A stretch of 55,748 nt of DNA, from positions 1-55,748 of IMG/VR virus record IMGVR_UViG_3300044981_000063. The stretch is one strand, 5' to 3'. The notes under the pieces are model-generated. The model was not told the origin of the DNA, searched no databases, and saw only the letters and a program-made list of their open reading frames with translations. How positions within the stretch are numbered: the stretch's first letter is position 1; each line of letters starts with the position of its first letter. The DNA is from a virus. Shown here piece after piece: positions 1,866-16,035 of the stretch. The position numbers and the translations under genes were made by a program.

Positions 1866-1985
1866 TGCGGTAGTGGCGTCTAACCAGCGTCCGCACGTAG
1901 CTCAGAGGTAGAGCGAGCGTCGAAAGCCTTATGGTGAGGTGAGTAGCAGCGAAGGTCGGTGGTTCAATTCCACCCGTGTACCGCA
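1866..1985 (+). ncRNA. tRNA-like sequence, not a canonical tRNA
   Basis: A clear D-arm (GCTC, loop, GAGC at about 1900-1914) and a clear T-arm (GGTGG, TTCAATT, CCACC at 1958-1974) are present. The 43 bases between them give no convincing anticodon stem, and the acceptor stem directly flanking the arms pairs at only five of seven positions. TGCGGTA at 1866-1872 is perfectly complementary to TACCGCA at 1979-1985, which could close a larger fold starting at the predicted transcription start. It could be a degenerate tRNA, a tRNA mimic, or the remnant of a tRNA-derived attachment site. Confidence 0.35.
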
Positions 1986-11279: not shown

Positions 11280-11513
11280 ATGGGCAATTTAAGCATGGCT
11301 GAGGTAGTAGACCGGGGCATGGCGCGGCGTGAAATGCCCGCTGTTTGCCCATTTTGTGGGGATGATCCGCCACTAGCGGCCGTCGGATATTCTTTCGGTC
11401 GAAGCCCGCGCTACATGGTCGGATGCCAGAATGATGACTGCCCGGCCCAGCCCAGCGTTTCTGGGGATACAATTGACGAGGCCTGGGCACGCTGGAACCG
11501 GCGCGCACCATGA
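11280..11513 (+). CDS. Lar-family restriction-alleviation-like protein
   Basis: A 77-residue zinc-binding protein. VCPFCGD, then VGCQNDDC, then the DTIDEAWARWNRR tail form the Lar signature (two CxxC-type knuckles and a terminal WNxR). The ATG at 11280 has AGGGAG upstream; the longer frame is rejected. Lar/Ral proteins modulate host type I restriction by acting on its modification activity. It is the first gene of the rightward operon and its stop overlaps the next start. Confidence 0.75.
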   Translation: MGNLSMAEVVDRGMARREMPAVCPFCGDDPPLAAVGYSFGRSPRYMVGCQNDDCPAQPSVSGDTIDEAWARWNRRAP

Positions 11514-12448
11514 AAATCACCAAGGCTGGCCTTTACAGCGGCGTCCCCATGTCTGCCTACCAGGGTGATCTTTGCGGCGAGCCGTCGATTTCATCGTCTG
11601 GCCTTCGCACGCTATTCCTCGAAAGCCCCAAGCATTACTGGCGGGATTCTTACCTCAACCCCCATAGGCCAGAACAGAAAGACAGCGACGCTTTTGTGTT
11701 GGGGCGGGCTGCGCATCATTTGCTTTTGGGCGAGGACGCCTTTTCCACCCTATTCATCATGCGCCCCGATAAGTTCGATTCCTGGCGCACAACCGCATCC
11801 AAGGAATGGCGTGCAGAACAGGAGGCGGAAGGCCGCACCGTGCTGCTGCCCGCCCAGCTTGAGCAAATCCGGGGCATGGCGCGGTCGCTGGCTTCTGAGC
11901 CGCTTATTTCAGCCGGCATACTCAATGGGCAGATCGAGCAGAGCTTGGTCTGGAAAGACAAGGAAACCGGGGTTTATTTGAAGTCCCGGCCTGACGCAAT
12001 TCCTAATGACAGCGGGGATTTTTGCGACCTCAAAACTTCTGTGAACTATGGCTTTGATCTGGACCGCGATATTTCCAAGTACAGGTACGATATTCAGGCT
12101 GCATTGTGCGGCATGGGCGTGCGCGAAATTCTCAAGCGCGAGATGGAAAGCTTTTCCTTCTGCTTCGTGGAAAAGGACGCGCCATTCAGTGTCGAAATCC
12201 TAACCCTCAAGAAAGAGGACATTGCCGCCGCTGAGCAAGATATCCGCGTGGCGCTGGATACCTTCGCCTGGTGCCTGAAAACGGGGGATTGGTTTGGCCC
12301 AGCCGGAACGCAGCGCGACGCGCGGCCTGTGTTTATTTCGGATTGGGCTCGCCAGCAGGCAGAATTCCGGCGCGACTTTCTTAAGCGGGAGATCGCGCGG
12401 GCAACTATGGACGGCCCGACACAGGCCGATTATTTGGGAGCAGGTTGA
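11510..12448 (+). CDS. RecE/exonuclease VIII-like PD-(D/E)XK nuclease
   Basis: A 312-residue protein. SISSSGLRTLFLESPKHY, LGRAAHHLLLG, LKSRPDAIP and DLKTSVNYGFD follow in the order of the PDDEXK exonuclease family (motifs H, DA and DLKT). The probable catalytic residues are the aspartate of RPDA, the aspartate and lysine of DLKT, and the histidine of AAHH. It digests duplex ends to expose single strands for the RecT-like annealing protein encoded immediately downstream (TGA then ATG). Together they form the homologous-recombination module. Confidence 0.85.
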   Translation: MKITKAGLYSGVPMSAYQGDLCGEPSISSSGLRTLFLESPKHYWRDSYLNPHRPEQKDSDAFVLGRAAHHLLLGEDAFSTLFIMRPDKFDSWRTTASKEWRAEQEAEGRTVLLPAQLEQIRGMARSLASEPLISAGILNGQIEQSLVWKDKETGVYLKSRPDAIPNDSGDFCDLKTSVNYGFDLDRDISKYRYDIQAALCGMGVREILKREMESFSFCFVEKDAPFSVEILTLKKEDIAAAEQDIRVALDTFAWCLKTGDWFGPAGTQRDARPVFISDWARQQAEFRRDFLKREIARATMDGPTQADYLGAG

Positions 12449-13582
12449 ATGGATATCGACAAACTGGAAGGCAAGATTGACCGGGTTGCGGCCGGCGCTA
12501 CCGAAATCCACATGGGCTTTGGCGGTGTGAAATTCCAGACCATGATGGAATTGATGGAGTTCTCGAAGTTGATGGCGGTTTCTGGCTCTGCTGTTCCTTA
12601 CCATCTGCGCGGCAATCCGGGCGCATGCCTCGCCATTTGCACCAAGGCGCTGCGGTTTGGCTTCGACCCCTTTGCCTTGGCAGAACACTCTTTTGCGATG
12701 AGCAAGGAAGTTGACACCACGGTCACCCAGCCAACGGGAGGCCGTACCACTATCAAGGAAAAGGTCGAAACTATTGCCTACGATTCCTATGTGCTCCGGG
12801 CGATAATAGAATCCCATGCTCCGATTAAGGGGCGGCTAAAATATTCTTATGCAGGAGAAGGCGACGAGCGGACCTGCACAGTCAGTTGCATACTGTTGGA
12901 AACAGACGAGATTATTTCCCTCACATCAGTCACGCTGGGCAAGCGGAAAAAAGACATTGGCACGAGCGAGAAAGGCAATCTCAAGGGCTCGTCGCTATGG
13001 ATCACGAAGCCAGATCAGCAGCAGGGATATGACACCGCCCGCGATCTATGTCGCCTGCACTTTCCTGAAGTCTTAATGGGATGGTACGACAAGGACGAAT
13101 TTGACGAATACGCCAAGGCTGCGGCGGCTACGGACGTGACCCCCGCATCTGGCCTTAAGGAACGGCTGGCTGCGGGCACCAAAGGTGAGGCCAAAGGCTT
13201 TTCCGCTGCCCATGTGACCGAACAGATAGGCCACTCCCCCGGAACTGTCCTAGACGCCAGTATGCCCGCGAAAGAACCGGCACTGGCTGGCGAGGCCGGG
13301 GAGGGTGGCACCAAGGGCCGCAAGCGGAAAACAGCCGCCAGTGAGGCTCCTGAGCCTTCCAATGCTGCACCCGCGAACGAACCTCTAGCCGATCTGACCG
13401 CCGAATGGCTGGACGAGAAGATCGCCGAGGCCAATAACCTGACGGCCATGGCGCTGCTGGATGAACTGGACCCGGCGGTTTGGAAGCGGCTGGATATCGA
13501 CGGGCGCAAGAAAGACCTGGGCCCGAAATGGGAAGCCGAGGGCTTTGAACCAAACCGCGCCCGCCTTATGAGCGCCACATGA
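12449..13582 (+). CDS. recT: RecT-family single-strand annealing protein
   Basis: A 377-residue protein. ELMEFSKLMAVSGSAVPYHL, then CLAICTKALRFGFDPFA, then a conserved core ending in ARDLCRLHFPEVL correspond to the RecT family. The C-terminal 130 residues are low-complexity (Pro/Glu/Ala/Lys), as in many phage versions, followed by a small folded tail. It anneals complementary strands exposed by the upstream nuclease. The gene begins the base after the nuclease stop, indicating coupled expression. The three-letter symbol is by family, not by proven orthology. Confidence 0.8.
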   Translation: MDIDKLEGKIDRVAAGATEIHMGFGGVKFQTMMELMEFSKLMAVSGSAVPYHLRGNPGACLAICTKALRFGFDPFALAEHSFAMSKEVDTTVTQPTGGRTTIKEKVETIAYDSYVLRAIIESHAPIKGRLKYSYAGEGDERTCTVSCILLETDEIISLTSVTLGKRKKDIGTSEKGNLKGSSLWITKPDQQQGYDTARDLCRLHFPEVLMGWYDKDEFDEYAKAAAATDVTPASGLKERLAAGTKGEAKGFSAAHVTEQIGHSPGTVLDASMPAKEPALAGEAGEGGTKGRKRKTAASEAPEPSNAAPANEPLADLTAEWLDEKIAEANNLTAMALLDELDPAVWKRLDIDGRKKDLGPKWEAEGFEPNRARLMSAT

Positions 13583-13842
13583 CCAAGAAAAAGATGGGTC
13601 GCCCCCGCACCCGCGCAAAGCCCAACAGGTTCGACCGGGAAGTTGGTGCCCGCATCAAGGCAGCGCGGGAGAAGGCTGGGCTAAGCCCGACTCAGGCGGC
13701 CATCCAGGTCAAAAAACATCTATCCACTCTGATGCGGTGGGAGGCAGGCGACGTCTGCGTGCCTATCAATATGCTGGCGTGGCTGGCGAAGATTTATGGG
13801 TGCCAGATGCAGGATTTCTTGGACGGTGTGAGGCCGCGATGA
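13579..13842 (+). CDS. XRE-family regulator
   Basis: An 87-residue protein. VGARIKAAREKAGLSPTQAA, then HLSTLMRWEAGDV, then NMLAWLAKIYG form a standard Cro/CI helix-turn-helix at residues 18-80. The first 17 residues are basic. It overlaps RecT (ATGA) and the next gene (ATGA), so it is expressed with the recombination genes and may provide feedback on the operon. Confidence 0.8.
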   Translation: MTKKKMGRPRTRAKPNRFDREVGARIKAAREKAGLSPTQAAIQVKKHLSTLMRWEAGDVCVPINMLAWLAKIYGCQMQDFLDGVRPR

Positions 13843-14105
13843 GCGAAATGGTAGATCGCGTGGCCGCCGCAATGAAAGATGCTTTTAATCGGCATGACGG
13901 CAAAATTTTAAACCTCAAAGATTGGCAAGAGGAAGGAATACAATTGGCGGCTCTCGCGGCTATCGCCGCCATGCGCGAACCAACTGGGATTATGTACATT
14001 ATGGGCGCTAACGCAATTCCTGGTGACCCCACGACATATGAAAATATGATTGATTATTTGTCTGTCGCCTGGAAAGCCATGGTTGATGAGGCACTCCGTG
14101 ACTAA
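13839..14105 (+). CDS. Hypothetical protein
   Basis: An 88-residue mostly helical protein (MSEMVDRVAAAMKDAFN, then QLAALAAIAAMREPTG) with no cysteines and no membrane segment long enough to call. The ATG overlaps the stop of the XRE gene. In phages of this type such proteins often sit between recombination genes and an HNH nuclease. Function unknown. Confidence 0.6.
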   Translation: MSEMVDRVAAAMKDAFNRHDGKILNLKDWQEEGIQLAALAAIAAMREPTGIMYIMGANAIPGDPTTYENMIDYLSVAWKAMVDEALRD

Positions 14106-14478
14106 ACCCGTCAGCCGCAAGATGGCCGTGGACGCGCTGCTGTTTTACATGCGGGCGCACCTCTGCACGACGCATGATGAGGCCGGGAAACTGGTGGCCT
14201 TCATTCCCTGTCCCGAATGTGGCCACCCATTGCTGGCCGGCCAAGCGATCCAGTTTGATCATCACCACGCGGACGGAATGGGTGGCCCGCACGAATACCA
14301 GAACCTGCGCCCAATCCATTATGATCCGTGCCACAAGAAAAAGACGGCACGCGATGTTGGTGCCCAGGCGAAGGTTCGCCGCATCACCGGCCAAAACAAG
14401 CCGCGCCCTAAGACCAAGATTGCAAACAGGCCGTTTCAGAAAACCCATCGGCCATTCCGAAGGAGTCCGAAGCCATGA
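14098..14478 (+). CDS. HNH-type endonuclease-like protein
   Basis: A 126-residue protein. I prefer the GTG at 14098, which has GAGG upstream; an ATG at 14086 is possible. CPECGH begins the domain, followed by FDHHHADGMGGPHEYQNL and HYDPCHKKKT: two zinc knuckles with the HNH histidines and asparagine. The tail is very basic (over 20 Lys/Arg in the last 45 residues) and would bind DNA. A role in DNA processing or host-DNA attack is possible. It overlaps both neighbours. Confidence 0.7.
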   Translation: MTKPVSRKMAVDALLFYMRAHLCTTHDEAGKLVAFIPCPECGHPLLAGQAIQFDHHHADGMGGPHEYQNLRPIHYDPCHKKKTARDVGAQAKVRRITGQNKPRPKTKIANRPFQKTHRPFRRSPKP

Positions 14479-14786
14479 CATTAGCGGATAGGCTCTTTAG
14501 GGTTGCAATAACAGGCATGGTTCATAAAGATGACCCACACGTGATCGCCGAAGCGCAAGGCGAGATCGAGAGACTTAGCACATGGGAAAAGATGGTTGTG
14601 GCAGCCGCCGATGCGATATTAGCCATTCTGGGGCTGCGGCGCGGCGCCTCCCTGGATGACGTGCAGAGGAAATTTCGCGAACTTGCGGCTAAGCGCCATC
14701 CAGACACGCATGGCGGCAGCACGGCAGCATTTCAGGATTTGGAGCGCGCCCGCCGGGAGGCGATGAAGCAATGCGTGAGTTCTTAG
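14475..14786 (+). CDS. J-domain (DnaJ-like) protein
   Basis: A 103-residue protein. Its C-terminal 55 residues, LRRGASLDDVQRKFRELAAK, then the RHPDTHGG loop and FQDLERARREAM helix, match a J domain with the essential HPD motif between helices II and III. The N-terminal 45 residues are an unrelated helical region. J domains stimulate the ATPase of Hsp70/DnaK, so it probably directs the host DnaK to a phage or host protein, for example a replication complex. It overlaps the HNH gene (ATGA). Confidence 0.7.
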   Translation: MTLADRLFRVAITGMVHKDDPHVIAEAQGEIERLSTWEKMVVAAADAILAILGLRRGASLDDVQRKFRELAAKRHPDTHGGSTAAFQDLERARREAMKQCVSS

Positions 14787-14845
14787 AAGCAATGGCGTGG
14801 ATTGCAGTGGTGATACTGTTTGCGCATCTGTGTGGGGTTTGGTGA
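14771..14845 (+). CDS. 24-residue membrane peptide
   Basis: The ATG at 14771 has GGGAGG eleven bases upstream; the product, MREFLEAMAWIAVV followed by ILFAHLCGVW, is one hydrophobic helix. It starts inside the end of the J-domain gene and its TGA abuts the next ATG. Short and unproven, but consistent with the gene packing. Confidence 0.4.
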   Translation: MREFLEAMAWIAVVILFAHLCGVW

Positions 14846-15283
14846 ATGGCCACGTATATTTTCGATATTGACGGTACGTTGGCGGACTGTTCTCATCGGC
14901 TGCACCACATCCAGGCCAAGCCGAAAGACTGGCGCACGTTCTTTTCCGAGTGCCACGGTGATTTCCCCATCCAGCATGTGATCGACGTAGCCCGCTCTCT
15001 TTGGCTGGCGGATAACCAAATCGTCTATGTCTCCGGGCGTTCCGACGAGTGCGAGGAAAAGACCCGCGCATGGCTGTTGAAGCATGGTCTACCAGAAGCG
15101 CCGCTCTATATGCGCAAGGCTGGTGATTATCGCGCCGATGACATCGTGAAGGGGGAACTGCTGGACCAAATCATTGCCGATGATATTCGGCCCGTCATGG
15201 CCTTTGATGACCGCGACCGGGTTGTGGCGATGTGGCGGGCGCGAGGCATTCCGTGCGCTCAAGTCGCGGCGGGAGAATTCTAA
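14846..15283 (+). CDS. HAD-superfamily polynucleotide 3'-phosphatase-like protein
   Basis: A 145-residue single-domain HAD hydrolase. FDIDGTLADCSHR is motif I with both aspartates, YVSGRSD motif II, and MAFDDRDRVVAMWR motif III/IV, the pattern of the phosphatase half of T4 polynucleotide kinase (PseT). No kinase half is present. It probably removes 3'-phosphates or cyclic phosphates from broken nucleic acid. It is joined by TAATG overlap to an RlaP-like nucleotidyltransferase, which suggests a shared RNA-end-repair role (inference). Confidence 0.75.
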   Translation: MATYIFDIDGTLADCSHRLHHIQAKPKDWRTFFSECHGDFPIQHVIDVARSLWLADNQIVYVSGRSDECEEKTRAWLLKHGLPEAPLYMRKAGDYRADDIVKGELLDQIIADDIRPVMAFDDRDRVVAMWRARGIPCAQVAAGEF

Positions 15284-16035
15284 TGGACGCCAAGACCATC
15301 GCAGACGAAAACACCATCCTCCGGGGCCTTGTCGGATCGACGGCACACGGCACCGGCCTAGACGGTCACGAAGACCGCGACGAAATGGGCATCTGCATCG
15401 AGCCGCCAGAAACTGTGGCGGGGATCAGCACATTCGAGCAACACATATTCCGCACCCAACCAGAAGGCGTTCGCAGCGGTCCAGGCGATCTTGACCTTGT
15501 GGTTTATTCGCTACGGAAGTTTTGCCACCTTGCCTACAAGGGCAACCCGTCAATCCTGATGCTGATGTGGCTCCCCGAATATATGACCAAAGAGGTCTTG
15601 GGCGTTCAGCTTATCCAAATCCGGGACGCCTTCGTGTCGCGCGAAGCGGGGTGGCGCTATCTGGGCTATCTGACGGGCCAGCGCGCGGGACTGACTGGGC
15701 AGCGCAGCCCCAAGGTAGCGCGGCCGGAGTTAGTCGAGCGGTTCGGCTATGACACGAAGTATGCCATGCACGCCCTGCGGCTTGGCCTTCAAGGCATCGA
15801 ATACCTGACACACCGCCGAATCAGCATCCCCATCCAAGAGCCTGATCGGGAATATCTGCGGTCTGTGCGACGCGGGGAATTGTCCATGACCAAGGTGATC
15901 GAGGACATTGACAGGATCGCGGCGGAACTGAAAGACCTCACGGAGCGCAGCACAGCGATTGCGGACCTTCCAACCATCAACCGCTTTCTTGTCGAGGCGC
16001 ATCAACGTCATTGGAAAAATCGCGGTCTGGTTTGA
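15283..16035 (+). CDS. RlaP-like nucleotidyltransferase (PF10127-type)
   Basis: A 250-residue protein of the DNA-polymerase-beta nucleotidyltransferase fold. GSTAHGT followed by HEDRDEMGI gives the GS and DxD-like catalytic elements; DLDLVVYSLRKFCHLAYKGNP is the conserved helical element of the RlaP branch, annotated as RNA-repair polymerase-beta-like. The ATG at 15283 shares a base with the previous stop; the upstream in-frame start at 15232 is rejected. Probably adds nucleotides to, or otherwise modifies, RNA ends together with the adjacent phosphatase. Confidence 0.7.
   Translation: MDAKTIADENTILRGLVGSTAHGTGLDGHEDRDEMGICIEPPETVAGISTFEQHIFRTQPEGVRSGPGDLDLVVYSLRKFCHLAYKGNPSILMLMWLPEYMTKEVLGVQLIQIRDAFVSREAGWRYLGYLTGQRAGLTGQRSPKVARPELVERFGYDTKYAMHALRLGLQGIEYLTHRRISIPIQEPDREYLRSVRRGELSMTKVIEDIDRIAAELKDLTERSTAIADLPTINRFLVEAHQRHWKNRGLV

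Follow-up and report, generated by a model that had tools for sequence, protein, structure and literature searches.

We report two overlapping genes in a virus contig of 55,748 bp (the window, analysed at its full length) that encode a kinase-less phosphatase of the PNKP/PseT type (HAD) and a nucleotidyltransferase (NTase) of the RlaP family (Table 1). Our preferred reading, in which we have about even confidence, is that the pair constitutes a small module for healing RNA 3' ends and serves the phage as an accessory, probably counter-defence, cassette within its early operon. It resembles an atypical, pared-down form of the known repair kit, with parts familiar from phage RNA repair in a new arrangement. 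The TAA of the HAD gene, which starts with ATG, and the ATG of the RlaP gene share one base; this TAATG overlap suggests translational coupling, and the two genes apparently form one transcription unit. Both open reading frames that the original prediction had described as a PseT-type phosphatase and an RlaP-type NTase with a TAATG overlap are present, and matches to PF25109, PF10127 and PHROGs as well as the active-site residues agree with this assignment. The family placement is not a matter of chance, with scores far above the curated cut-offs.

Table 1. Position and supporting evidence of the HAD-RlaP gene pair and the genes preceding it in the window.
Feature	Coordinates	Strand	Evidence
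RecE/exonuclease VIII-like nuclease	11510..12448	+	phrog_412 3.7e-68
RecT-like annealing protein	12449..13582	+	phrog_561 2.9e-34
Cro/CI-type HTH regulator	13579..13842	+	PF13560 2.3e-09
HNH endonuclease	14050..14478	+	PF01844 1e-05
Small J-domain protein, upstream of HAD	14475..14786	+	PF00226 5.9e-07
Hydrophobic mini-ORF, 24 aa, MREFLEAMAWIAVVILFAHLCGVW, putative coding	14771..14845	+	read from sequence
HAD phosphatase, PNKP/PseT type, 145 aa, without kinase domain	14846..15283	+	PF25109, phrog_415, T4 Pnkp alignment, identity to L043 solo HAD
TAATG stop/start overlap of HAD and RlaP genes	15281..15285	+	sequence
RlaP-family (Pol-beta superfamily) nucleotidyltransferase, 250 aa from ATG	15283..16035	+	PF10127, phrog_388, alignment A1, AlphaFold model, PDB folds

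The HAD protein matched PF25109 (HAD_PNKP) with 124.6 bits (cut-off 27.6, E 4.2e-36) in a Pfam profile search and the polynucleotide kinase families phrog_415 (1.4e-44) and phrog_505 in PHROGs. It could be aligned to structures of T4 Pnkp (PseT; 1ltq, E 9e-15; 5uj0, E 2e-15) as far as the C-terminal end. The DxDGT nucleophile motif is present, and D7, D9, R18, R65, D98, K102, D121 and D122 correspond to D165, D167, R176, R213, D254, K258, D277 and D278 of T4 Pnkp, which we take to be catalytic residues of the T4 phosphatase. Whereas T4 Pnkp has an N-terminal 5'-kinase, the HAD corresponds only to the C-terminal 140 residues of Pnkp, and the absence of a 5'-polynucleotide kinase domain from the 145-aa ORF also distinguishes the pair from T4-type healing and sealing by Pnkp and Rnl1. 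The HAD is a complete phosphatase of this type without kinase, predicted to act as an RNA 3'-phosphatase. The sole PADLOC match of this protein, to CARF with 12 bits, was judged to be noise.

Relatives of the HAD are frequently found next to RNA ligases. In 11 of 15 virus records with related HADs, a PF09511 or PF09414 RNA ligase (T4-type or Rnl2-type) is located 179–2548 bp from the HAD; the probability of such proximity arising by chance is ~1e-10, calculated as the product of per-record chances with some of the 15 records being related. The nearest relative (52% identity) is a solo HAD in L043 that is followed by an Rnl1 ligase gene, and downstream of a solo HAD in L046 (45% identity) come Rnl1 and, after it, an AAA_33 kinase. 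Since these closest solo HADs adjoin Rnl1, the solo form is an RNA-repair gene elsewhere. The gene after the HAD is Rnl1 in both cassettes but RlaP in the window, where RlaP thus occupies the slot of the ligase. A connection between loss of the kinase and absence of a ligase was considered and rejected, because the solo HADs in G036/L043, G039/L046 and G050/L059 do have Rnl1. In L043 (7297–9992) and L046 (7243–10552), the solo HAD and Rnl1, in L046 together with the AAA_33 kinase, stand in a row with an integrase-like protein, and these rows possibly represent a mobile RNA-repair cassette.

The genomic setting of the pair fits DNA metabolism as well. The HAD and RlaP genes are the last ones of a plus-strand early block with genes for a RecE-like exonuclease, RecT, HTH, HNH and J-domain proteins, while portal, terminase, capsid, connector and lysozyme genes are found on the right side of the record. 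The HAD could accordingly be a DNA 3'-phosphatase serving the RecE/RecT/HNH operon, with the NTase as a terminal-transferase-like enzyme or an unrelated passenger. PNKP-type phosphatases accept DNA too, and RlaP is located near RecT in the Gordonia phages Confidence and Bantam and near ERF/exonuclease in Nanosmite and EniyanLRS. We nevertheless regard a role in DNA-end processing as quite unlikely: the nearest solo HADs adjoin RNA ligases, the HAD scored only 15 bits against the DNA 3'-phosphatase equivalog model (cut-off 108), and the RlaP of Bantam is close to RecT and an RNA ligase alike. Proximity of RlaP to RecT/RecE or ERF/exonuclease was observed in several phages (the window at 11510–16035; L039, L185, L041, L191). 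The hydrophobic mini-ORF of 24 codons stops directly before the HAD start. The GC content is 57–59% in the pair and 57% in the rest of the record, and no near-identical DNA to the left 25 kb was found among phage records.

RlaP stands for RNA ligase-associated Pol-beta. The NTase matched PF10127 (RlaP) with 88.3 bits (cut-off 23, E 8.5e-25) in a Pfam profile search and the nucleotidyltransferase family phrog_388 (E 2.8e-55) in PHROGs, and it shares 42–53% identity with phage and actinobacterial members of this family. In an alignment of 34 sequences (A1), the Pol-beta NTase active site (GS, DxD, third D) is present: G18-S19, D31 and D33 are kept and D69/D71 mostly so, and the block GYDTKYAMH (GxDTKxAxHxxR) is conserved. 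Different from the name-giving association, no RNA ligase was found in the same record as the NTase. RlaP relatives, with identities that reach 51% across most of the protein, are also present in actinobacterial, Acidimicrobiia and Acidobacteria genome contigs (L118-L178; prophage or chromosomal). In many Mycobacterium phages of the Bxz1 group (H176-H186), RlaP gene 3 appears to be split by an HNH-bearing insertion; one RlaP of this group is annotated as 'nucleotidyltransferase with HNH endonuclease', and some matches break near the GYDTKYAMH block.

The confident AlphaFold model of the NTase (15283–16032, pLDDT 95.5) was closest to Hailong HalB (Z 9.3, 172 residues, rmsd 4.3, 12% identity), which shares the overall Pol-beta NTase fold with helical domain and belongs to a bacterial anti-phage defence system, followed by aminoglycoside (antibiotic) nucleotidyltransferases. 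These matches support a Pol-beta NTase whose second domain is helical and leave the substrate undecided; they say little on function, because what they have in common is the generic Pol-beta NTase plus helical bundle, at identities of 9–15%. The NTase might thus act outside RNA repair, as a maker of oligonucleotides or signals, a MenT-like tRNA-modifying NTase or an AMP-transferring regulator, with the HAD acting on a small product. We consider this very unlikely, since by sequence the protein falls into RlaP/phrog_388 and has 42% identity to the RlaP of the RNA-repair operon of Gordonia phage Neville, whereas the fold matches are generic and sequence comparison identified no solved relative. 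The original prediction had named an unrelated MNT toxin-type enzyme as part of the contrary outcome of a structure search. No toxin NTase family was among the family matches of the NTase and no HEPN partner gene was noticed; for the second domain, the fold list includes helical bundles of HEPN-like type, and absence of a family from this list does not exclude that family. A defence identity was not assigned by PADLOC, which gave no match for the NTase. HalB as nearest fold raises the question whether some RlaP-like NTases of phages act as mimics or antagonists of such systems.

RNA-repair genes also accompany RlaP in other phages. Among 20 named RlaP phages, picked for diversity, 14 have an RNA ligase (12 ATP-grasp enzymes and two others RtcB, with none above cut-off in the remaining six) and 12 have HAD_PNKP. 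Together with the ligases near related HADs, these counts address the search for a co-occurring ligase in other phages that had been proposed as a check; in the record of the window itself, no ligase was seen. In Neville, PNK, RNA ligase, RlaP, a Ro-like protein and tRNAs are located within ~11 kb, and the RlaP of Bantam is two genes ahead of the ligase. In a set of 50,697 phage records, RlaP was found in 488, HAD in 3257 and either of them in 3414, corresponding to ~331 records with both compared to ~31 expected, a figure obtained by inclusion-exclusion between searches from records that are not independent, with counts inflated by related genomes. About two thirds of the RlaP phage records also carry HAD, and this share is 55–100% across Mycobacterium, Gordonia, Escherichia and Streptomyces phages.

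Such co-occurrence at the genome level has to be weighed against the poor conservation of the pair itself. No HAD was detected within the fetched flank of RlaP at any of 35 viral RlaP loci, and a match anywhere in the record was obtained for five of the 35, one of them below cut-off. With a joined HAD and NTase query, coverage of at least 80% was reached in only three phage records, all from Streptomyces phages with full PNK and reverse order. RlaP adjoins a PNKP-type enzyme in the Streptomyces phages BRock, LuckySocke and pSt2308; different from the window, the gene order is reversed, the enzyme is a full kinase-phosphatase and RNA ligases are encoded elsewhere in the genome. An overlap of RlaP with a HAD that lacks the kinase was observed in the source record alone. 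In 24 larger virus records that are related to the source phage through portal (23) or RecT (one), neither RlaP nor HAD_PNKP was present, and thus both genes are accessory in this phage group. Co-occurrence in related phages, on which the original prediction had made its reading depend, is found for RlaP, HAD and ligase across genomes, but neither gene occurs in these 24 relatives of the source phage.

These observations are also compatible with two independent accessory RNA-repair genes that were acquired separately and work with host or other partners of their own rather than in a joint pathway. The missing conservation of the HAD-RlaP adjacency, the absence of both genes from the relatives of the source phage and the diverse viral neighbourhoods of RlaP, where no recurrent partner emerged among 119 neighbour proteins, would be expected in this case; TROVE/Ro60, Thg1 and a poly(A)-polymerase-head protein were seen as single neighbours. 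The TAATG overlap, the strong co-occurrence of HAD and RlaP in genomes and the separate PNK-RlaP adjacency with opposite order in Streptomyces phages make independence of the two genes unlikely in our view.

A joint healing module leaves the sealing step to be accounted for. RNA ligases of the families PF09414, PF09511 and RtcB (PF01139) were not found in the 55.7-kb record, which is possibly incomplete, and tblastn with the ligases of four relatives and one kinase revealed no remnant of a ligase or kinase. The ORFs that were scanned lack a polynucleotide kinase domain, and the larger ones among them were structural, of replication type or without assignment. The original prediction was right that no ligase is visible, be it Rnl1, Rnl2 or RtcB. 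Its suggestion that the pair may work with a host ligase needs to be narrowed: RtcB joins 3'-phosphate ends, and since the HAD takes away exactly this phosphate, host RtcB does not suit the pair chemically. A 3'-OH/5'-phosphate ligase may be encoded by the host or by a part of the phage genome outside the possibly incomplete record; alternatively, the lesion may be terminal, so that no sealing is required. Absence of the ligase and the kinase domain, an overlap seen once and 24 relatives without either gene argue against a repair module. Overall, the RNA end-repair reading is partly supported, by the enzyme identities and by their link through residues, co-occurrence and the operon context of relatives, but not by conservation of the pair arrangement, and no candidate for its ligation step was found in the record.

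The tRNA-like sequence at 1866–1985, which had been cited in favour of an RNA-related function, turned out to be degenerate. The element (1894–1978, plus strand) has well-formed D- and T-arms, a partial acceptor stem and a 37-nt stretch in place of the anticodon arm. Its Rfam score is borderline (30.5 bits, gathering threshold 29), ARAGORN found no tRNA gene at 1866–1985, and shuffled sequences fold with equal stability (z +0.43). A normal tRNA is thereby ruled out, and the element adds no support to an RNA function; it is possibly a tRNA remnant or an attachment-site relic.

In the RNA 3'-end-healing module that we favour, the HAD would act on RNA that a host nuclease has cleaved, removing the 3'-phosphate and leaving a 3'-OH, as suggested by its family and residues, and perhaps also open 2',3'-cyclic phosphates like T4 Pnkp. 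Pol-beta NTases require a hydroxyl acceptor. RlaP may use the healed 3'-OH as such and add one or a few nucleotides without template, thereby restoring what the nuclease had removed. Sealing would then be catalyzed by a 3'-OH/5'-phosphate RNA ligase encoded outside the record, or be dispensable where only a terminal tail has been damaged. In a ligase-free version of this repair, the phosphatase would expose the 3'-OH and RlaP would rebuild a trimmed tail, e.g. the acceptor end of a tRNA, and thus reverse tail-trimming defences without sealing; we regard this version as unlikely. No biochemical work on RlaP was found in the literature searched. It was predicted previously that PNK-HAD clears 3' phosphates and that RlaP, ahead of ligation, replaces the nucleotides which the cleaved RNA has lost (PMC7824862). 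The pair in the window may represent those two predicted steps in one apparent transcription unit. The tRNase RloC cuts out the wobble nucleotide, and the resulting cyclic-phosphate ends can be cleaned by T4 Pnk (PMC2610378). Defences that cut tRNA tails exist as well, with a nuclease of the RuvC type (PMC12851939), which should leave a 3'-OH and thus does not directly call for a phosphatase. An overlapping phosphatase and RlaP without kinase or ligase offer a clean system for asking whether RlaP extends phosphatase-healed RNA ends, and also for asking which host tRNA-cutting defences, PrrC-like, wobble-excising RloC or tail-cutting, such repair counters.
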